DNA of 64,000 bases from Gemmatimonadota bacterium. Lineage in GTDB: Bacteria > Gemmatimonadota > Gemmatimonadetes > Gemmatimonadales > Gemmatimonadaceae. The notes below the pieces were generated by a model. It worked only from the letters and a program-made list of their open reading frames with translations. It was not told where the DNA came from and ran no database searches. Positions within the stretch are counted from its first letter, which is position 1, and every line of letters begins with the position of its first letter. The stretch spans positions 1-64,000 of the forward strand of contig VHBO01000003.1 of NCBI GenBank assembly GCA_016871895.1. The letters run 5' to 3'. Below, piece by piece: positions 17,329 through 26,795 of the stretch. Both the position numbers and the translations under genes were made by a program.

Positions 17329-18528
17329 ATGGCCGACTCGTTCGTCTTCCGCCCCTCCGAGAACATCGCCGCGCTGAAGGAGAGCGCCACCATCGCGGTC
17401 TCGCAGCGGGCCAAGGCGCTCAAGGCTGAAGGGCGCGAGATCATCGATCTCGGGGCGGGGGAGCCGGACTTCGACACGCCGGCGCCGATCCGCGCTGCGG
17501 CCGCCGCAGCGGTCGAGCAGGGCGCGACGCGCTACACCGCGGTCGAGGGAATCCTCCCGTTGCGCGAGGCGATCGCCGCCGACGCCAATCGGGCGTATCG
17601 CGGCCCCGACCGCGTGACCCCGGCGGAGGTCGTCGTCTCCAACGGATCCAAGCAGTCGCTCTACAACGCCTGCGTGGCGCTCTTCGGCCCGGGCGACGAG
17701 GTCCTCGTCCCGACGCCGAGCTGGACGTCGTATTACGAGATGGTGGGGCTCGCCCGCGCGACGGCGGTGGAGGTGCACGGCGACCCCGCGCGCGGCTTCA
17801 AGGTGGACCCGGCGCGCCTCGCGGCACACGCCACGCCGCGCACGCGCGGCCTGATGCTGAACTCGCCGAGTAATCCGACGGGCGGCGTGTATGCGCCCAA
17901 TGAGCTCCGCGCGATCCTCGACCTCGCGGCCGACCGCGGCTGGTGGGTGATCAGCGACGAGATCTATGTGCGGATCTCCTACGACGCGCCCGCGCCCGGC
18001 GCCCTCGACGTCGCCACACGGCGCGACAACCTCGTGGTGGTGAACGGGGTCGCGAAGGCGTATGCGATGACCGGGTGGCGGATCGGGTGGACGATCTCCC
18101 CGGCCCCGCTCGCGAAGGCGATGAACGCGTTCCAGTCACACACGACGTCGAACGCGGCGACGGTCTCGCAGCACGCGGCGCTCGCGGCACTGACGCTGGG
18201 CGCGCCCGTGGAGGCGGAGGTGCAGTCGATGGTCGCGGAGTTCCGGAAGCGGCGTGACGCCGCGCTCCCGATCCTGCGCGGCGCGGGGCTCACCGTGCTC
18301 GAGCCGGCCGGTGCCTTCTACTTCTACATTAAGGCGCCGGGCACCGGCGCCGACGCCGGGGCTGCCTTCTGCACTGCGCTCCTCGAGCGCGAGGGGGTCG
18401 CGATCGTCCCCGGCTCTGCCTTCCGCACCCCCGATTGGGTGCGCGTCTCGTACGCCGCCGCGGAGTCGCAGGTGGTGGAGGCGTGCCGACGCATCGCTCG
18501 GGTCGCCGCCGACATCGGCGTCGGGTGA
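17329..18528 (+). CDS. Class I/II aspartate-type aminotransferase
   Basis: A 399-residue PLP enzyme. The Schiff-base lysine is in NGVAKAYAMTGWRIGW; NSPSNPTGGVY carries the conserved asparagine and VISDEIYVRI the aspartate that contacts the cofactor. Sequence resembles the prokaryotic aspartate aminotransferase subgroup (AspC-like, also used with prephenate). It is transcribed divergently from the helicase-like gene with a 103-base gap that includes an AT-rich patch (GGAAATATAG). A hairpin follows its stop. Confidence 0.9.
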   Translation: MADSFVFRPSENIAALKESATIAVSQRAKALKAEGREIIDLGAGEPDFDTPAPIRAAAAAAVEQGATRYTAVEGILPLREAIAADANRAYRGPDRVTPAEVVVSNGSKQSLYNACVALFGPGDEVLVPTPSWTSYYEMVGLARATAVEVHGDPARGFKVDPARLAAHATPRTRGLMLNSPSNPTGGVYAPNELRAILDLAADRGWWVISDEIYVRISYDAPAPGALDVATRRDNLVVVNGVAKAYAMTGWRIGWTISPAPLAKAMNAFQSHTTSNAATVSQHAALAALTLGAPVEAEVQSMVAEFRKRRDAALPILRGAGLTVLEPAGAFYFYIKAPGTGADAGAAFCTALLEREGVAIVPGSAFRTPDWVRVSYAAAESQVVEACRRIARVAADIGVG

Positions 18529-18627: not shown

Positions 18628-19134
18628 GTGTCGTTGCTGGTGCGGATGGAGACGATGGAAGAAGGGCAGCTCCCGCCGGTCGAAGATCGGTGGGACACCG
18701 ACACCGAGATCCTGACCGCGGCGCTGCGGCCGTCGGTGACGCCGGACGGGCTCTCCGGCTCGATGGACATCGAGGGGACCGACGGCGCGTGGCTGATGCT
18801 CGAGCTGAAGGCGGGACGGCTCGCGTCGGTGGAGGTCGCGGTCTGGCCCGACGTGCATCTCGTGGACGAGCTCGCGCCGCCGGAGGCCGATGGGATCGCG
18901 CGGCTCGCGGTGCCGTTGGCGGACGGGGGGGCGATCGTGACGGCGCTGGAGGTCGATACGCCGCTGGTCGCCGTGGCCGACGAGGCGGAGCGCACGATAC
19001 ACTTCCGCATCGGCCCGCCGCGGGCCACGCGTCCGGTGCGGGTGGGCCGCGACCTGCTGGTCGAGGTCGATGCCCGCTCCGAGATCGCGGGGCTCTGGCT
19101 CCTGAACGTTCCTCCCTCCCCGATGACACTCTGA
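18628..19134 (+). CDS. Hypothetical protein, first gene of the NurA-HerA-SbcDC operon
   Basis: A 168-residue acidic protein of unknown function. The GTG at 18628 is chosen because a perfect AGGAGG (18617-18622) lies five bases upstream, one of the few strong Shine-Dalgarno sites here; an earlier ATG at 18580 has none. The sequence alternates beta-like stretches (GAWLMLELKAGRLASVEVAVW, IHFRIGPP, DLLVEVDA) without cysteines or membrane segments. It lies 32 bases before the NurA-like gene on the same strand, so a role linked to the nuclease complex is inferred from position only. Confidence 0.7.
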   Translation: MSLLVRMETMEEGQLPPVEDRWDTDTEILTAALRPSVTPDGLSGSMDIEGTDGAWLMLELKAGRLASVEVAVWPDVHLVDELAPPEADGIARLAVPLADGGAIVTALEVDTPLVAVADEAERTIHFRIGPPRATRPVRVGRDLLVEVDARSEIAGLWLLNVPPSPMTL

Positions 19135-19166
19135 TCCTCCCGCTGCTGTCCCTCGGGGCGCGCTGA

Positions 19167-20111
19167 ATGCGCGCCGCGATCCGTGCGCTCCGTGCCGCGG
19201 GGGTGGGTGTCGGCGCGGCCGGCGCGCCACTCGAACTCCGGACGACGTTCGACGACACCGCGCCGCGGGTCGAGCCGGTCACCCCGCTCGAGGGGGACCG
19301 GCTCGTGGTGCGCCCCGTGCCGGGCGCCCCCGAACCGGGGGTCCGAGCCTTCCTCGACGGAATCCAACGCTCGCAGGTGGTGGCGCACGTGGGGGCGGTC
19401 CCGCTCGTGCACGGCGTGGTCGCGGCGGCGGTGCGCGTGCGCGAGGCGCGTCGGATGCGCACCTGGGGCGCGGCGCGTCGCCGCGAGGCACTCGTCGTCC
19501 CCGTCGCCGCGCTCGACCACGCGCTCGTTGCGACGCTCGGCGCCGCGGTGCCCCTCGTCGACACCACCGCGGGGGAACCCGCGCCGCCGTCGGGACATCC
19601 GCAGGACCTCGCCGCCCGCGCGCTCACCGCGGTGCAGCGGATGCGCGAGGCGGAGGAGCTCGCCCTCGTCGCGGCCTGGGTGGCCGACGGCGACGGCCCG
19701 CTCCTCGTCGACGGTGGGATCAGCGGCTCCCCCGAGGGCGCGCGCGCCGAGTCGGTGATCGGCGTGGTGAAGTCGCATCGCACCCTCTACGCCGCGCCGT
19801 CGGAGCTCCCGCTCGTGCTCGCCCTGCGCGAAGGGGAGCGCACCAGCGCGGTGGCGCTGCATTCCCCGCGCCGGAACCCCGTCGCCTCCTGGTATCTCCG
19901 GCTCCGCGACCCCGGTGACCGCTCCCCGCTCTTCGGGCTCGTGCGGGTGGAGGTCGCCCCGACGGGGGACCTCACCGCGCGCGCCGATGCCGTCTCGCGC
20001 TGGGTGCTCGCGGAGCGCGCCCCCGTCGCCCTGCCCGATCCGCGGTGGGACGTGATGGTCTACGGCATCCGGGAGTGCGAGGAGTACCTTACGGCCATCC
20101 TTCCCCGTTGA
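19167..20111 (+). CDS. NurA-like nuclease
   Basis: A 314-residue protein. The arrangement fits the NurA fold: RAFLDGIQ with an acidic residue at 64, REAEELALV (E163/E164), LLVDGGISGSPEGA with D182, then GVVKSH (K202), matching the DGS, glutamate, DG and lysine positions of the RNase H-like metal site. A C-terminal MVYGIRECEEYLTAILPR helix corresponds to the final NurA helix. NurA works with the HerA ring translocase to resect DNA ends. The next gene encodes a HerA-like ATPase seven bases downstream, and Mre11/Rad50 homologues follow, which supports the call despite low overall similarity. Confidence 0.65.
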   Translation: MRAAIRALRAAGVGVGAAGAPLELRTTFDDTAPRVEPVTPLEGDRLVVRPVPGAPEPGVRAFLDGIQRSQVVAHVGAVPLVHGVVAAAVRVREARRMRTWGAARRREALVVPVAALDHALVATLGAAVPLVDTTAGEPAPPSGHPQDLAARALTAVQRMREAEELALVAAWVADGDGPLLVDGGISGSPEGARAESVIGVVKSHRTLYAAPSELPLVLALREGERTSAVALHSPRRNPVASWYLRLRDPGDRSPLFGLVRVEVAPTGDLTARADAVSRWVLAERAPVALPDPRWDVMVYGIRECEEYLTAILPR

Positions 20112-20118
20112 GCCTGCC

Positions 20119-22074
20119 GTGACCGCGCCCGTCCTCGGTCGTGTCGTCGCCACCGAGCGACGACCGAACACCCCGCACGAGTTCCACTTCTGGACCGCGC
20201 TCGACGCGCCGGTCGGGGTCGGCACGATCGTGCGCGTCGAGTCGACGCGCCCGGTGAACGGCGTCCTCCCCAGCGTCTATGGTGTGGTGACCGAGGGGTT
20301 CGGCTACACCGATCTGCAGACGCCGCTGCACGATGTGCTCGGCGCGGACGGTGAGCCCGGGGCGAGCGCGACCGCCCCGACGGAGCGCACCGAGATCCGG
20401 CTCTACACCGCGGCGGTGCTCCGGCAGGTGCCCGAGGAGCCGCTGCAGCCCGTGCCGATGGGGACGGTGCACCTCGCCACCGAGGTCGACGTGCAGGCGG
20501 CGCTCCGGATGGACACGTACGTGCAGGGGAGCGACGCGCGCGGGATCCCGGTGGGAGCGTATCGCTCCGGCGGTACCGATGCAGCGGTGCATCTCGACGC
20601 CGACTTCCTCCTCGGTCCCGAGGCGGCGCACCTCGCGATCTCGGGCGTCTCGGGGCTCGCGACCAAGACGAGCGCGGTGCAGTGGCTCCTCGCGAGCATC
20701 TTCACGCATCTCCCCGTGCGGAAGGGGAAGGTCGCGGCGGGCTGCTTCACCGTGAAGGGCCCTGACCTCTGCTTCATCGACCGGCCCGCGACGCGGCTCG
20801 ATCCCGCCGACCGTGCGCTCTACGACGCGCTCGGCGTCCCCGCCGCTCCGTTCGACCGCGTGCGCTACTTCGCGCCCTGGCACGCACGCGGGACGCATCT
20901 GGCGACGCTCCGCACGCACGACGCGCTCGCGGAGAGCGTCACCCCGCTCACCTGGGGGCTGCGCGAGACGCTGCAGTACGCGGAGGTGCTCCTCAGTCGT
21001 GAGGACATCGATGCCAAGGCCGACGCGCTCATCGACTTCATCAAGGAGCGCGTCGTCGACCAGCGCTTCGAGGACAAGCTGCTCGAGGGCACGCACGACG
21101 TGCGCTCGTTCGCCGACCTCGAGCGTTGGTTCCGCGAGCTCCTGCAGGCGATGGAGGCCGGGAATCAGGAGCAGTGGCGGACGCACCACATCGCGACGAT
21201 CCGTAAGGTGCGCAACCGGCTCGGGAACATCTCGACCCGCTGCAAGGGGCTCGTCACCGACGATGGCACGGTGAGCGACCTCCCATTCGGGGCGTTCGAG
21301 GACCGCGCCGTGTATGTGGTGGACGTCGCACAGCTCGAGGAGGACGCGCAGGACCTCGTCTTCGCGCGGATCATCTCGCAGTTGCGTGAGCATCTCGAGA
21401 AGCGCGCGCTCGGCGTGGAGCAGGTCGTCGTCTTCGTCGACGAGCTCAACAAGTACGCGCCCTCCGACGGCGCTGACACCTATGTGCGGCAGATGCTCCT
21501 CGACATCGCCGAGCGTGGGCGGTATCTCGGGCTCGTGCTCTTCGGGGCGCAGCAGTTCCGCTCGCAGGTCCATCGGCGCGTGGTCGGGAACAGCGGGACG
21601 CAGCTCTTCGGGCGGATGGACGCCGACGAGCTCGCGACGCCCGGCTACCAGACCCTCGCCCCGGCGACGAAGGCGCGGCTCGCGACGCTGGAGAAGGGGC
21701 AGCTGATGGTGCGGCATCCGCACTTCGGACAGCCGATCTTCGTGCGCTTCCCGCGGCCCGCGGTGCTCACCGGGCGCGAGGGGGTGGAGCAATTCCCGCC
21801 CGCGGAGGTCCCGACGCTCGAGATGGCGGTGGCGAAGACGCTCCGTCGCCTTGATCCCTCGATCACGGTGGGTCAGGTGCAGGATGTCCTCGCCCTGGCG
21901 GGAGATGATGAGGAGGCGATCCTCCGCGCGCGCAACGTCACGCTCCTCAAGCGGCCGGATAACGTGCTCGCCTTCTTCTCGAAGCAGCTTCGGAAGCGCG
22001 TCGCGCCCGAGGTCGTGGGCGGGCGTGGGCCCGCCCCGCTCCGCACCCCCGCCACGGACGACGAGTACGGCTGA
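20119..22074 (+). CDS. HerA-like DNA translocase ATPase
   Basis: A 651-residue ATPase with a HAS-barrel-like N-terminal beta domain (GRVVATERRPNTPHEFHFW) and a RecA-type motor. The P-loop region is unusual: AISGVSGLATKTSAVQWLL (about 174-192) has TKT where the classic HerA loop has GK[ST], with one extra residue. Walker B is VVVFVDELNKYAP (about 436-448), and LFGAQQFRSQV with a downstream arginine-rich segment matches the HerA/FtsK sensor region. It should form a hexameric ring that drives NurA. GTG start at 20119. A leftover possibility is another DUF87-type ATPase, but position strongly favours HerA. Confidence 0.85.
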   Translation: MTAPVLGRVVATERRPNTPHEFHFWTALDAPVGVGTIVRVESTRPVNGVLPSVYGVVTEGFGYTDLQTPLHDVLGADGEPGASATAPTERTEIRLYTAAVLRQVPEEPLQPVPMGTVHLATEVDVQAALRMDTYVQGSDARGIPVGAYRSGGTDAAVHLDADFLLGPEAAHLAISGVSGLATKTSAVQWLLASIFTHLPVRKGKVAAGCFTVKGPDLCFIDRPATRLDPADRALYDALGVPAAPFDRVRYFAPWHARGTHLATLRTHDALAESVTPLTWGLRETLQYAEVLLSREDIDAKADALIDFIKERVVDQRFEDKLLEGTHDVRSFADLERWFRELLQAMEAGNQEQWRTHHIATIRKVRNRLGNISTRCKGLVTDDGTVSDLPFGAFEDRAVYVVDVAQLEEDAQDLVFARIISQLREHLEKRALGVEQVVVFVDELNKYAPSDGADTYVRQMLLDIAERGRYLGLVLFGAQQFRSQVHRRVVGNSGTQLFGRMDADELATPGYQTLAPATKARLATLEKGQLMVRHPHFGQPIFVRFPRPAVLTGREGVEQFPPAEVPTLEMAVAKTLRRLDPSITVGQVQDVLALAGDDEEAILRARNVTLLKRPDNVLAFFSKQLRKRVAPEVVGGRGPAPLRTPATDDEYG

Positions 22075-22089
22075 GCCGGCCGCGTCGGG

Positions 22090-22141
22090 TGGCGGGACCG
22101 AGTGACGGGACCGGGTGATGGGACCGGGTGACGGGGTGCCC
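22090..22141. repeat. 13-base tandem repeat between herA-like and sbcD genes
   Basis: Four consecutive 13-base units: TGGCGGGACCGAG, TGACGGGACCGGG, TGATGGGACCGGG and TGACGGGGTGCCC (the last decayed). They fill the gap after the HerA-like stop and end four bases before a -10-like TAGATT in front of sbcD. Confidence 0.75.
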
Positions 22142-22144
22142 GGG

Positions 22145-22150
22145 TAGATT
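22145..22150 (+). promoter_or_regulatory. -10-like hexamer TAGATT before sbcD
   Basis: TAGATT is followed by nine bases and the GTG at 22160, allowing a leaderless internal transcript for sbcD-sbcC-GNAT in addition to read-through from the upstream genes. Confidence 0.4.
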
Positions 22151-22159
22151 TCCCGACCC

Positions 22160-23377
22160 GTGCGCCTCCTCCACCTCTCCGACCTCCACCTCGGCTTCCG
22201 GCAGTACCAGCGGCAGACGCCGATGGGAATCAACCAGCGCGAAGCCGACGTCGCGCAGGCGTTCGCGCGCGCGGTGGACCGCATCCTGGCGCTCGCCCCT
22301 GACCTCATCGTGATCGGGGGGGACGTCTTTCATACGGTGCGCCCCACGAACACGGCGATCCTCCACGCCTTCCGGCAGTTCGGGCGACTGGTGCACGGCC
22401 TCCCCGAGACGCCGATCGTGATCGCGGCGGGGAACCACGACATGCCGCGCTCGACGGAGTCGGCGTGCATCCTCCGGCTCTTCGAGCAGGGGTTCGCGCC
22501 CCGCGCCGACGGGGCGCCGCCGATCCTCGTGGCGGACCGCGCGCCGCGGCGGCTGCAGTTCCCGCGGCTCGGCGTCTCCGTGCTCGCGGTCCCCGATCTG
22601 CCTCCGGGGAGCGTCGACCTCGCCCCCGACCCCGAGGCGCGCTACAACGTCCTCGTCCTCCACGGCGAGGTGCAGGGGGTGCTCCCGGCGGCGGGGGGCG
22701 AGGATCGTGCTGCGGCGCAGATCCCCGTCGCCGAGGTCACGCGCGCGGGGTGGGACTACGTGGCGCTCGGGCACTATCACGTGACGACGCGCGTGGCGGA
22801 CCACGTCTGGTACGCCGGCTCCCTCGACTACACGAGCACGAACCCCTGGGGAGAGCTGCGCGAGGAGCGCGCGGCGGGCCTCGCGGGGAAGGGGATGATC
22901 GAGCGCGATCTGCGCACCGGCGCGCACACCGTGCATCCCCTCACCCCGACGCGGCCGCTCCTCGACCTCCCGTCGGTCGATGGGGCCGGCCAGACGGCGA
23001 CCGAGCTCGATGGAGCCATCGCGGCGGCCGTCGCCGGGGTGCCGGGTGGGATCGACGGGGCGATCGTGCGGCTCGTCCTCCGTGACGTCCCGCGGCACGT
23101 GGCGCGGGAACTCGACCACGCCGCGCTCCGCGAGGTCCAGCGGCGCGCGCTGCATTTCCATCTCGACGTGCGCCGACCCGAGTCGGTGCGCCGCGAGGCC
23201 ACGGGAGGTGCGCCCGCGCGCCGCCCGACGTTGACCGACGCGCTGCGGGCGGCGCTCGCCGCGCGCGCGCTCCCGGCCGACGTCCCGCGCGAGGCGCTCG
23301 TGGCGCTGGGGCTCCGGTATCTCGCGGACGCTGAACGAGACGAGGGGGACCGCCTGGTCCCGGGGGGCGAGGGATGA
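22160..23377 (+). CDS. sbcD: SbcD/Mre11-type DNA repair exonuclease
   Basis: A 405-residue calcineurin-like phosphodiesterase. Metal-binding motifs are SDLHLG (7-12), GGDVFH (53-58), GNHD (91-94), LHGEV and GHYH (204-207). A C-terminal capping domain follows. Mre11/SbcD cuts DNA ends and hairpins as a complex with Rad50/SbcC, encoded downstream with an ATGA overlap. The GTG start gives the exact family N-terminus MRLLHLSDLHLG. The upstream NurA and HerA genes make this the archaeal-style arrangement. Confidence 0.95.
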   Translation: MRLLHLSDLHLGFRQYQRQTPMGINQREADVAQAFARAVDRILALAPDLIVIGGDVFHTVRPTNTAILHAFRQFGRLVHGLPETPIVIAAGNHDMPRSTESACILRLFEQGFAPRADGAPPILVADRAPRRLQFPRLGVSVLAVPDLPPGSVDLAPDPEARYNVLVLHGEVQGVLPAAGGEDRAAAQIPVAEVTRAGWDYVALGHYHVTTRVADHVWYAGSLDYTSTNPWGELREERAAGLAGKGMIERDLRTGAHTVHPLTPTRPLLDLPSVDGAGQTATELDGAIAAAVAGVPGGIDGAIVRLVLRDVPRHVARELDHAALREVQRRALHFHLDVRRPESVRREATGGAPARRPTLTDALRAALAARALPADVPREALVALGLRYLADAERDEGDRLVPGGEG

Positions 23378-25833
23378 GGCTCGTCCGTCTGCGACTGCAG
23401 AACTTCCGGCAGCACCTCGACACCACGCTCGAATTCGAACGGGGGCTGACGGGGATTATCGGCCCGAATGGCGCCGGGAAATCGACCATCCTCGAGGCGA
23501 TCGTCTGGGCGCTCTTCGGGGCGCACGCCGCGCGCGGCGGCTCCGACACGATCCGTGCGCTCCGCGCCCCGGCGCGTGCCCCGGTGCGTGTCGAACTCGA
23601 GTTCGAGCTCGCGGGGCATCGGTATCGGGTCCTCCGTGGGCTGACGACGGCGGAGCTCTATCTCGACGGCGCGGACGCGCCGGTGGCGAACTCGGTGCGT
23701 GCGGTGACCGAGATGGTGGGCCGCCGTCTCGGGATGACGCGCGACGAATTCTCGCACACCTACTTCACGGGGCAGAAGGAGCTTGCGCTCATGCAGAATC
23801 TGAGCGCTCCGGATCGTGGGAAGTTCCTCTCGCGTGTGCTCGGCTATGAGCGGCTGCGGCTGGCGCAGAACGCGGCGGAGGAGCGTCGGAAGGCGCTCGC
23901 CGCCGAGCTCGCCGGCGTGCGGAGCGCGCTCCCCGATGCCGAGACGCTGACCCGCGAGCTGACCGAGGCACGCACGGCGCGTGATCGGGCGTCGGCCGAC
24001 GTCGATGCGGCGGCGGTGGCAGGGACCGCGGCGACGGCGGCGCACGAGGCGATCGCGCCGCGCTGGGCGGCGGTGCAGGCGGCGCGCGAGACGCGGGAGC
24101 GGATCGCGCGGGCGATCGCGGGAGTGGATGGGGAAGTACTCGGGCAGGCCGCGGCGTCGACGCGTCTCGCGGCGGACCGCGCGGCGGCGGTCGAGGCGGT
24201 CGCGGCGCTTGTGCCGCTCCGGTCGCGGCTCGATGCGCTCCCCGACGTCCGCGTACGGACCGAGGCGCAGCGTCGTCTTCGCGAGGCGGCGGCCCGTCGG
24301 CGCGCGATCGACGAGCAGCGCGCGATCCTCGAGGCCGACGCGACGGCGTTGCGCGCGGAGCAGGCGCGCCTCGCGGCGGCGGCCGCCGCCGAAGGGGAGC
24401 TCACGCCGCGGCTCGAGGCGGCACGCACCGCGCTCGGTGAGGTGGAGCGCGAGGCGGAACGGCTCCGCACCGGGTGGGTCCGCGACCGGCAGGACGTCGA
24501 CGCGCAGCTACGCGCGCTCCGCGCGCAGTACCTCGAGGTTCGCGAGCAGCGCGACCGGATCGTCGCGCTCGGCGACGCGAGCCCCTGCCCGACCTGCACG
24601 CGCCCGCTCGGCACGCATCTCGCCGACGTCGTCGACGTGCTGGAGTCGCAGATGGCGGCGCTGGAATCCAACGGGACCTATTTCCGTCAGCGCGCGGCCG
24701 AGCTCGAGCCGATGCCGGCAGCGTTGCTCACGCAAGAGGAGGCGCGCCGCGCGCAGGGGGAGGCGCTCGCTGCGCTCGAGCGGGCACGCATCGAGGCGCA
24801 GGGCGCGGCGCGTCAGCACCGCGGGGTCGCCCAAGAGCTCGCGACCAAGACGGCGCTCCTCACCACCCTCGAGGGGGAACGGCGTCAGCTCCCCGAGGGG
24901 TACGACGCGGCCGGGCACGAGGCGCTCGAGTCGGAGTTGGCGGCGTTGGTGCCGCTCGAGCGGGATGCCGCGCGTCTCGTCGCCCAAGCGGATCGGCTCC
25001 CGGCGATCGAGCGCGAGGAGGCGGCGCTCGCGGAGCGGCAGCGTGAGCTCGAGGCGCGGCGTGCGGCGCTCCGGGCGGAGGAGGCGGCACTGCAGCTCCC
25101 GTCTGACGGCGACGCGCCGCTGCAGGCGGCGTACGAGGCGGCGCGGCTCGCGGTGCTCGAGGCGCAGCAACGGCTCGCGACCGCCCGGCTCGCGCGGGCT
25201 ACCGCCGCCGCCGAGGTCGATCGCGCTGCGACGGCGCTGGAGGCCGGCGAGGCGCAGCGGGCCCACGCCGCGCGGCTGGAGGCCGAGCGCCGGCTGCACG
25301 AAGAGCTCGTCCGCGTCTACGGCGATCTCCGGACCGACCTCAATGCGGCGATGCGGCCGGAACTCTCGGAGATCGCCTCGGGGCTGATCAGCGACCTCAC
25401 CGACGCGCGCTACACCGAACTCGACCTCGACGACAAATACCGGATCCAGCTCCTCGAGGAGGGAGTGCCGAAGCCCGTGATCTCCGGTGGCGAGGAGGAT
25501 CTCGCCTTTCTCGTGCTGCGGCTCGCCGTCTCGCAGATGATCGCCGATCGCGCGGGGCAGCGCTTCTCGCTCCTCGTGCTGGACGAGGTCTTCGGTTCCC
25601 TCGACGACGTGCGGCGTCAGGCGGTGGTGTCGCTGCTCCGCTCGATGGAGGACCGGTTCGAGCAGGTGATCGTGATCACGCACATCGACGGGGTGAAGGA
25701 CGGCCTCGACCGCGTCATCACGGTGGGCGTCGACCCCCGGAGCGGGGCGGCAAGCGTCACGACCTCGACGCGCGGCGCGGGCGACGCGGAGGCGTTCGAT
25801 GGCGTCGCAGCGCTCGCGGCGGGATTGGCGTGA
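23374..25833 (+). CDS. sbcC: SbcC/Rad50-type SMC-like ATPase
   Basis: An 819-residue SMC-like protein. Walker A GPNGAGKS (30-37) is at the N-terminus; long coiled-coil arms rich in Ala/Arg/Glu run either side of a zinc hook CPTC (405-408) placed almost exactly mid-protein; the signature SGGEEDLAFL (from 704) and Walker B LLVLDEVFGSLDD (from about 733) close the ATPase head. It tethers DNA ends and regulates SbcD. At 819 residues it is nearer archaeal Rad50 in size than the ~1050-residue E. coli SbcC. Its stop overlaps the next gene as GTGA. Confidence 0.95.
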   Translation: MRLVRLRLQNFRQHLDTTLEFERGLTGIIGPNGAGKSTILEAIVWALFGAHAARGGSDTIRALRAPARAPVRVELEFELAGHRYRVLRGLTTAELYLDGADAPVANSVRAVTEMVGRRLGMTRDEFSHTYFTGQKELALMQNLSAPDRGKFLSRVLGYERLRLAQNAAEERRKALAAELAGVRSALPDAETLTRELTEARTARDRASADVDAAAVAGTAATAAHEAIAPRWAAVQAARETRERIARAIAGVDGEVLGQAAASTRLAADRAAAVEAVAALVPLRSRLDALPDVRVRTEAQRRLREAAARRRAIDEQRAILEADATALRAEQARLAAAAAAEGELTPRLEAARTALGEVEREAERLRTGWVRDRQDVDAQLRALRAQYLEVREQRDRIVALGDASPCPTCTRPLGTHLADVVDVLESQMAALESNGTYFRQRAAELEPMPAALLTQEEARRAQGEALAALERARIEAQGAARQHRGVAQELATKTALLTTLEGERRQLPEGYDAAGHEALESELAALVPLERDAARLVAQADRLPAIEREEAALAERQRELEARRAALRAEEAALQLPSDGDAPLQAAYEAARLAVLEAQQRLATARLARATAAAEVDRAATALEAGEAQRAHAARLEAERRLHEELVRVYGDLRTDLNAAMRPELSEIASGLISDLTDARYTELDLDDKYRIQLLEEGVPKPVISGGEEDLAFLVLRLAVSQMIADRAGQRFSLLVLDEVFGSLDDVRRQAVVSLLRSMEDRFEQVIVITHIDGVKDGLDRVITVGVDPRSGAASVTTSTRGAGDAEAFDGVAALAAGLA

Positions 25834-26795
25834 AAGCGGTCGCACCGCGGCGCCTCGCCGGACCGGTCCCGCTCAGCACGGTGCCGTTGTCGGAGCTGAA
25901 TGCGCTCTTCAGCGACGCGTTCAGCGAGCGGTATCGCCGCGACGGGATGGTCGGGGTCCGCGTGCCGCCGCTGCATCCGCGCGTCTGGGGCTTCGCCTTC
26001 GAGGCGGCGGGGGACGGCGCGATGGCGTGGCGCGACGAGACGGGGGCCTTGGCGGCGTTCAACCTCGCGCACGTCTCCGGTCGCGAGGGATGGATGGGGC
26101 CGTTGGCGGTGCGCGAGGATCTGCAGGGGCAGGGGGTCGGCGGACGGATCGTGGCCGCGGCGGTGCGGCACCTCCGGGAGGCAGGGTGCACGATCATCGG
26201 GCTCGAGACGATGCCGCGCACGATGGACAACATCGGCTTCTACGCCCGCCGTGGGTTCCTCCCCGGGCGCGTCACGGTGACGGTCACGCTCGCCGCGGCA
26301 ACGGGGGATGGTCCCCCCGCGCGGCTCGGGCAGCGGTCCCCCTCGGCGCGCGCAGACGCCTTGAGGGCGTGCACCGCGCTCCTCGACCGACTCCGCCCGG
26401 GCGCCGACTATGCGCGCGAGATCACTGCGACGCTGGCGCACGGCATCGGGGACTGCCTCCTGTTCGAGGATGCCGCGGGCCGGCTCGACGGCTTCGCGCT
26501 CTACCACGATGTCCCGCTCGTGGAGGGTCGGTCGTTGGAGGAGATCCGTGTGCTGAAGGTCGCGCTCGCCGACCGCCGTCAGGTGCCGCGCCTCGCCGCG
26601 GCGGTCGCGGCGCAGGCGCGGGTGAGTGGGGCGTTGCGCGGCGCGCTGCGCGTGCAAGGGGAATACGGGGAGACCTTCGCGGCGCTCGTCGGGGCGGGGG
26701 CGCGCGTCCGGTGGACCGACCTCCGGATGCATCTCGGCGGATGTGAAGAGCCCGCGGCGGGCGCGGGGCTCGTGCTGTCGAACTGGGAGATCTGA
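25830..26795 (+). CDS. GNAT-family acetyltransferase coupled to sbcC
   Basis: A 321-residue protein. The first half is a GNAT domain with the acetyl-CoA loop VREDLQGQGVGGRIV (R/Q-x-x-G-x-G) and GFYARRGFLPG near residue 140. The second half (about 180-321) has a repeated, degenerate GNAT-like layout, so a tandem GNAT is likely. The substrate is unknown. GTG at 25830 overlaps the sbcC stop, so it is translated with Rad50. Whether it modifies the repair complex or is only a passenger cannot be read from sequence. Confidence 0.8.
   Translation: MKAVAPRRLAGPVPLSTVPLSELNALFSDAFSERYRRDGMVGVRVPPLHPRVWGFAFEAAGDGAMAWRDETGALAAFNLAHVSGREGWMGPLAVREDLQGQGVGGRIVAAAVRHLREAGCTIIGLETMPRTMDNIGFYARRGFLPGRVTVTVTLAAATGDGPPARLGQRSPSARADALRACTALLDRLRPGADYAREITATLAHGIGDCLLFEDAAGRLDGFALYHDVPLVEGRSLEEIRVLKVALADRRQVPRLAAAVAAQARVSGALRGALRVQGEYGETFAALVGAGARVRWTDLRMHLGGCEEPAAGAGLVLSNWEI

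Follow-up and report, generated by a model that had tools for sequence, protein, structure and literature searches.

How does a bacterium in which neither RecBCD nor AddAB is found process the ends of its broken DNA? The question is raised by a 64,000-nucleotide stretch (the window) of contig VHBO01000003.1, assembly GCA_016871895.1, from a member of the family Gemmatimonadaceae in the phylum Gemmatimonadota. It carries, in one operon, genes for the nuclease NurA, the ATPase HerA and the two subunits of SbcCD (Mre11-Rad50). The genome, G000, is a draft metagenome-assembled genome of 2.28 Mb in 129 contigs, 96% complete. The analyses described here indicate that the operon probably encodes the principal machinery with which this bacterium processes DNA ends, in the role of RecBCD/AddAB, and that it can be lost where RecBCD is present.

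Archaeal clusters of these genes, the structures and activities of the Deinococcus NurA-HerA proteins and a cluster in Oceanithermus have been published (PMC2288612, PMC9960219, PMC5448004), and a review lists NurA-HerA homologues in Cyanobacteria, Actinobacteria and Firmicutes (PMC8708640). Bacterial NurA-HerA has been described as confined to few bacteria and uncertain in role (PMC9960219, PMC12977600). In a 2026 paper on the archaeal structure, Deinococcus-Thermus is still the example given for bacteria, and a part in resection is called doubtful (PMC12977600).

Results

The nurA, herA, sbcD and sbcC genes

The identification of the genes was firm. A first-pass annotation, made from the window alone, had proposed that this bacterium has the full NurA-HerA-Mre11-Rad50 set; the four genes are indeed clustered in order, and all six plus-strand open reading frames (ORFs) are present at the coordinates it gave (Table 1). 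Many genomes have orthologues arranged in the same way, with protein identity falling to about 40%, so these ORFs are genes and no product of chance.

Direct searches of Pfam, PADLOC, NCBIfam and PDB with the single 314-residue NurA sequence gave no match, and the comparison with PF09376 that had been suggested as a check was likewise negative. Five of 38 homologues matched PF09376 at E values up to 1, one of them, within the phylum, above the curated cutoff. A family profile built from the 38 homologues found Deinococcus radiodurans NurA (drNurA; 7f6d_H, E 6e-19) and Thermotoga maritima TM1739 (1zup, E 1e-11), and these two bacterial proteins were its only matches among NurA structures. A profile restricted to closer relatives still recovered the homologue that passes PF09376 (E 2.6e-13). 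The AlphaFold2 model (predicted local distance difference test score, pLDDT, 93) has an RNase H-like NurA fold that matched four NurA proteins, those of Deinococcus (VIA Z 19.3 over 264 residues, 3.7 A), Thermotoga (Z 19.2), Sulfolobus (SsoNurA, 14.4) and Pyrococcus (PfuNurA, 12.4), while Argonaute and EndoV scored lower, with Z about 9. The expectation of a NurA fold was thus borne out by both the family profile and the structural match. Since these more sensitive tests were positive, the failure of the Pfam search is attributed to divergence, and by profile and model comparison the protein is a real NurA.

Residues D64, E164, D182, K202 and R293 are conserved, K202 and R293 being invariant in 38/38 sequences and D64 present in at least 90%. 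In the profile alignment K202 and R293 correspond to drNurA K201 and R309, and D64 is matched to drNurA D53 through the conserved FLDG motif; this correspondence presupposes that the deposited drNurA chain carries a 20-residue tag, as inferred from the same alignment. D53 is the catalytic Asp of drNurA, K201 and R309 bind phosphate, and each of the three is required for its nuclease activity (PMC9960219). The structural alignment begins at residue 26, the N-terminal region of the model is partly of low confidence, and no N-terminal pin like that of drNurA could be made out.

HerA aligned with D. radiodurans HerA (drHerA; 7f6d_B, E 1e-45) in both its N-terminal and its RecA-like half, at residues 3-309 and 340-558, and no archaeal HerA was found in the sequence search at E < 1. 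Its Walker A motif, GVSGLATKTS (position 176), is an unusual variant shared with drHerA, where it reads GISGVATKTS, and the Walker B region (VFVDE, position 438) has DELNKYAP in common with that protein. The drHerA pore arginines R495 and R552 are not kept and align with S449 and a threonine. An equivalent of R495 is kept in the HerA branch of the outer Gemmatimonadota families, and the two arginines are characteristic of drHerA, not of HerA proteins at large. SbcD matched PF00149 (E 4e-11), with the motifs DLHLG, GGDVFH, GNHD and GHYH, and TIGR00619 (E 3.5e-19, slightly under the model cutoff). SbcC, encoded by a single-copy gene, matched the AAA_23, SMC_N, SbcC_Walker_B and Rad50 models and has a zinc hook (CPTC) at residue 405 as well as the signature of the ABC head.

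Conservation of the operon

Across 150 Gemmatimonadota genomes, HerA was found in 103 and NurA in 86. In the genomes compared, which come from several families, the recurrent order is aminotransferase - U168 - nurA - herA - sbcD - sbcC - GNAT, with occasional gaps or missing members, and the comparison of gene order in related genomes, also proposed beforehand, showed it to be conserved across two families of the phylum. Outer families have the order herA - sbcD - sbcC - nurA. Of 80 named loci with sufficient flanking sequence, most have that second order; they come chiefly from Actinomycetota (Micromonospora, Actinoplanes, Catellatospora, Dactylosporangium, Acidimicrobiia, Nitriliruptorales); these are the best 80 of at least 542 loci ranked against an outer-family HerA and give no measure of frequency. 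Among these loci (L155-L234) the cluster is widespread in Actinomycetota, Micromonosporaceae included. The statement that bacterial sbcDC normally stands alone was therefore too strong, since it is commonly clustered in Actinomycetota, in other Gemmatimonadota and in Oceanithermus (PMC5448004).

Not every genome has nurA and herA side by side: in G140 (L069-L070), G029 (L072), G040 (L071) and G006 (L074), about 2 to 15 kb of inserted DNA lies between the two genes. Between herA, or the site of a lost herA, and sbcD, a conserved ORF of some 300 aa (motifs RLDSL and GWI.DAR) is present in many members of the family. It was seen in L067, L068, L071, L072, L137, L144, L147, L150 and L151 and is retained even where nurA-herA is gone; the window has just an 85-bp gap, 22075-22159, at this place.

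Distribution of RecBCD and AddAB

The first-pass annotation had called for a check of the genome for addAB and recBCD. Family searches of the draft genome found no RecBCD, AddAB or AdnAB: neither the PF12705 nuclease domain nor PF04257 (RecC) was detected, and the one UvrD-family helicase is UvrD/PcrA, encoded beside serS. RecJ and RecO are present. The single-contig genome of a relative, G129, is also HerA-positive and lacks PF12705 and PF04257. The operon apparently encodes the sole enzyme of its class in this genome. At the level of the phylum, strong PF12705 matches occurred in 10/84 genomes with type-A HerA and in 54/66 of the others, a comparison confounded by phylogeny.

Within the family, the absence of HerA was associated with the presence of RecC. 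In a first sample of 54 genomes RecC was found in 6/6 HerA-negative and 7/48 HerA-positive genomes (p 7e-5). In the full set of 179 the figures were 17/31 and 29/148 (p 2e-4), and among genomes at least 90% complete they were 13/18 and 17/87 (p 3e-5); none of these statistics is phylogeny-corrected, and the overlap counts were made from listings. Loss of HerA was confined to RecC-bearing genomes in the first sample, a rule that failed in the full family. The association is real, not absolute.

Six HerA-negative genomes whose loci were examined (G028, G019, G055, G068, G079 and G145) keep the aminotransferase, sbcD, sbcC and GNAT genes, lack nurA-herA between them, and carry RecC. A RecB-type helicase-nuclease was confirmed in G055 and G068, the latter with an adjacent RecC. 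In a tree of SbcD plus SbcC these six are scattered among HerA-positive genomes in at least three separate lineages, which argues for three or more losses of nurA-herA (node support was not examined). The window's own genus includes three HerA-negative, RecC-positive members, G028, G246 and G253; their genomes are small, 1.8 to 2.1 Mb. A short protein resembling an AsnC/Lrp-type ligand-binding protein (MITTIVLVQADP...), recognized by eye only, follows the aminotransferase gene in several HerA-negative family members (L147 6433-6774, L148 8979-9371, L150 8248-8889, L151 4849-5415).

Neighboring genes

The genes of the locus are tightly packed, nurA to sbcC spanning 19167-25833. The start of sbcC and the stop of sbcD share 4 nt, as do the GNAT start and the sbcC stop; GNAT is translationally coupled. 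The aminotransferase gene, directly upstream, is a seventh gene that the first-pass annotation did not name; it adjoins in most syntenic loci and is part of the conserved neighborhood, and GNAT lies downstream of sbcC in nearly all of them.

Table 1. Genes of the nurA-herA-sbcD-sbcC locus in the window.
Product	Coordinates	Strand	Remarks
Class I/II aminotransferase, AspAT-like	17329..18528	+	PF00155 E 6e-71; conserved upstream neighbor
U168, DUF2283-family beta-rich protein	18628..19134	+	GTG start, 168 aa
NurA nuclease, diverged bacterial branch	19167..20111	+	314 aa
HerA ATPase/translocase, D. radiodurans type	20119..22074	+	GTG start, 651 aa
SbcD/Mre11 nuclease	22160..23377	+	GTG start, 405 aa
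SbcC/Rad50 ATPase	23374..25833	+	819 aa
GNAT acetyltransferase	25830..26795	+	GTG start; PF00583 E 6e-12

The 168-residue protein noted earlier as unknown can now be placed in the DUF2283 family: PF10049 was matched by 24/30 of its orthologues at E values up to 1 (best, 1.2e-5), and the U168 of the window itself gave no match to it. Its AlphaFold2 model (pLDDT 89) resembles 7vmc_C (Foldseek E 4e-8; VIA Z 15.1 across 158/168 residues), a protein named as the CdiI immunity protein of Escherichia coli EC869 in PMC9071432. The modeled fold would link DUF2283-type proteins to a toxin-immunity fold; the likeness shows no function. U168 was found in 50/150 genomes and tracks the aminotransferase/sbcDC locus. 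The idea that it is a dedicated NurA-HerA subunit was weakened by its presence beside sbcDC without nurA-herA in G013, G038 and G043, which carry aminotransferase-U168-sbcD-sbcC, and by the many NurA-HerA-positive genomes that have no U168.

Discussion

It is likely that NurA-HerA and SbcCD together process DNA ends in this bacterium. By homology, SbcCD would bind and open broken or blocked ends, and a HerA hexamer would then pump the duplex into a NurA dimer. NurA would degrade the 5' strand, and in linear foreign DNA perhaps both, so that 3' single strands remain, onto which RecFOR would load RecA. The biochemical activity, its polarity and the handover from SbcCD to NurA-HerA are all predicted in the same way. 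The earlier suggestion that such an operon replaces RecBCD/AddAB stands insofar as the absence of NurA-HerA is tied to RecBCD, and is limited by the exceptions.

Several observations weigh against this reading. RecBC or AddAB is also present in 14/48 HerA-positive family genomes, so coexistence is possible; 5/18 good-quality HerA-negative genomes of the family have no RecC (in a search for RecC only), and G013, G038 and G043 (L116, L117, L118) seem to have neither NurA-HerA nor RecC nor a strong AddAB match. The association was drawn without correction for phylogeny, G000 is a draft, and RecJ is encoded in the same genome. Deletion of nurA or herA in D. radiodurans or Thermus thermophilus is mild or even beneficial for survival of damage (PMC9960219). 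Degradation of both strands by the complex of Thermococcus kodakarensis is described in work whose authors are sceptical of a role in resection (PMC12977600).

This last work proposes that the archaeal complex has an antiviral role, and NurA-HerA could be chiefly a degrader of viral DNA, like TdpAB and other defence pairs of HerA with a nuclease, that just happens to lie next to sbcCD. A TdpAB subunit is also among the matches of the NurA model (Z 13.7), the PADLOC HerA models match weakly, and exchange with RecBCD would fit too because RecBCD also destroys phage DNA. We consider this unlikely: the genes occur in 148/179 family genomes at one conserved housekeeping locus, unlike patchy, island-borne defence systems, and they keep the company of mre11-rad50 in two gene orders and in other phyla.

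That NurA-HerA acts in repair as an accessory or an attenuator, with RecJ and a helicase carrying out resection as argued for Deinococcus, seems rather improbable as well. RecJ and RecO are available, the D. radiodurans deletion phenotypes (PMC9960219) agree with it, and NurA-HerA, RecBCD and AddAB all seem to be dispensed with in G013, G038 and G043. However, the link within the family between HerA absence and RecC is not what a dispensable accessory would predict.

The operon had also been called archaeal-type, which holds for the four-gene content; as a statement of descent it is not supported. The closest solved relatives of HerA and NurA are bacterial, and the operon proteins appear from their sequences to form a bacterial branch, archaeal in gene content only. 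An SbcC of 819 aa, described as a Rad50 of archaeal size, was rejected as an archaeal trait, as relatives without NurA-HerA keep the same protein. Direct acquisition from archaea is very improbable, for all the identity in gene content with the archaeal nurA-herA-mre11-rad50 cluster, given that the sequence affinities lie with HerA and NurA of Deinococcus and with NurA of Thermotoga, not with archaeal proteins, and given the wide, mostly syntenic spread in Gemmatimonadota.

Among the nearest known systems is the homologous pair of D. radiodurans (PDB 7F6D, 7WRW; PMC9960219), which has the same variant Walker A motif and the same catalytic D/K/R of NurA, in a host that also lacks RecBCD/AddAB. 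In Deinococcus, nurA-herA lies apart from mre11-rad50 (PMC8708640); in the window proteins the drHerA residues R495/R552 are not kept and the drNurA pin is not apparent. The archaeal operons of Sulfolobus, Pyrococcus and Thermococcus cluster the same four families and share the NurA fold (Z 12 to 14) but show little sequence similarity; the window differs in its RecA/RecFOR context and in the DUF2283 and GNAT partners. In Oceanithermus profundus, nurA-herA is followed by sbcD-sbcC in the same order (PMC5448004), a single-sentence mention for one genus with no partner genes described, whereas here the arrangement is conserved in two families. RecBCD/AddAB would share the physiological role proposed here, with a motor and nuclease architecture unrelated to NurA-HerA. 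To our knowledge, no chi-like regulation is known for NurA-HerA. TdpAB and the HerA-nuclease antiphage systems combine a motor of the HerA type with a nuclease, NurA-like or of another kind, and are known as defence systems; we know of no link between them and mre11-rad50.

A search for NurA-HerA in Gemmatimonadota found no relevant paper in the literature covered, which excluded most subscription papers, and priority is therefore uncertain. Within that literature, what appears to be new is the conservation of the operon, the genes that accompany it and the tie to RecBCD. NurA-HerA is here a conserved operon across much of a phylum, together with mre11-rad50 and mostly in genomes without RecBCD/AddAB, and its natural losses tend to carry RecBCD. 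More tentatively, NurA-HerA plus Mre11-Rad50 could rank with RecBCD and AddAB as a third bacterial enzyme for end resection. It would be standard in bacteria of the Gemmatimonadales type and in many Actinomycetota and exchangeable with RecBCD, and the DUF2283 and GNAT proteins would be its dedicated regulators; this reading is possible, though doubtful as a whole. The disputed function of NurA-HerA becomes in this way a question for genetics, amenable to testing in cultured Gemmatimonadota or in Micromonospora.

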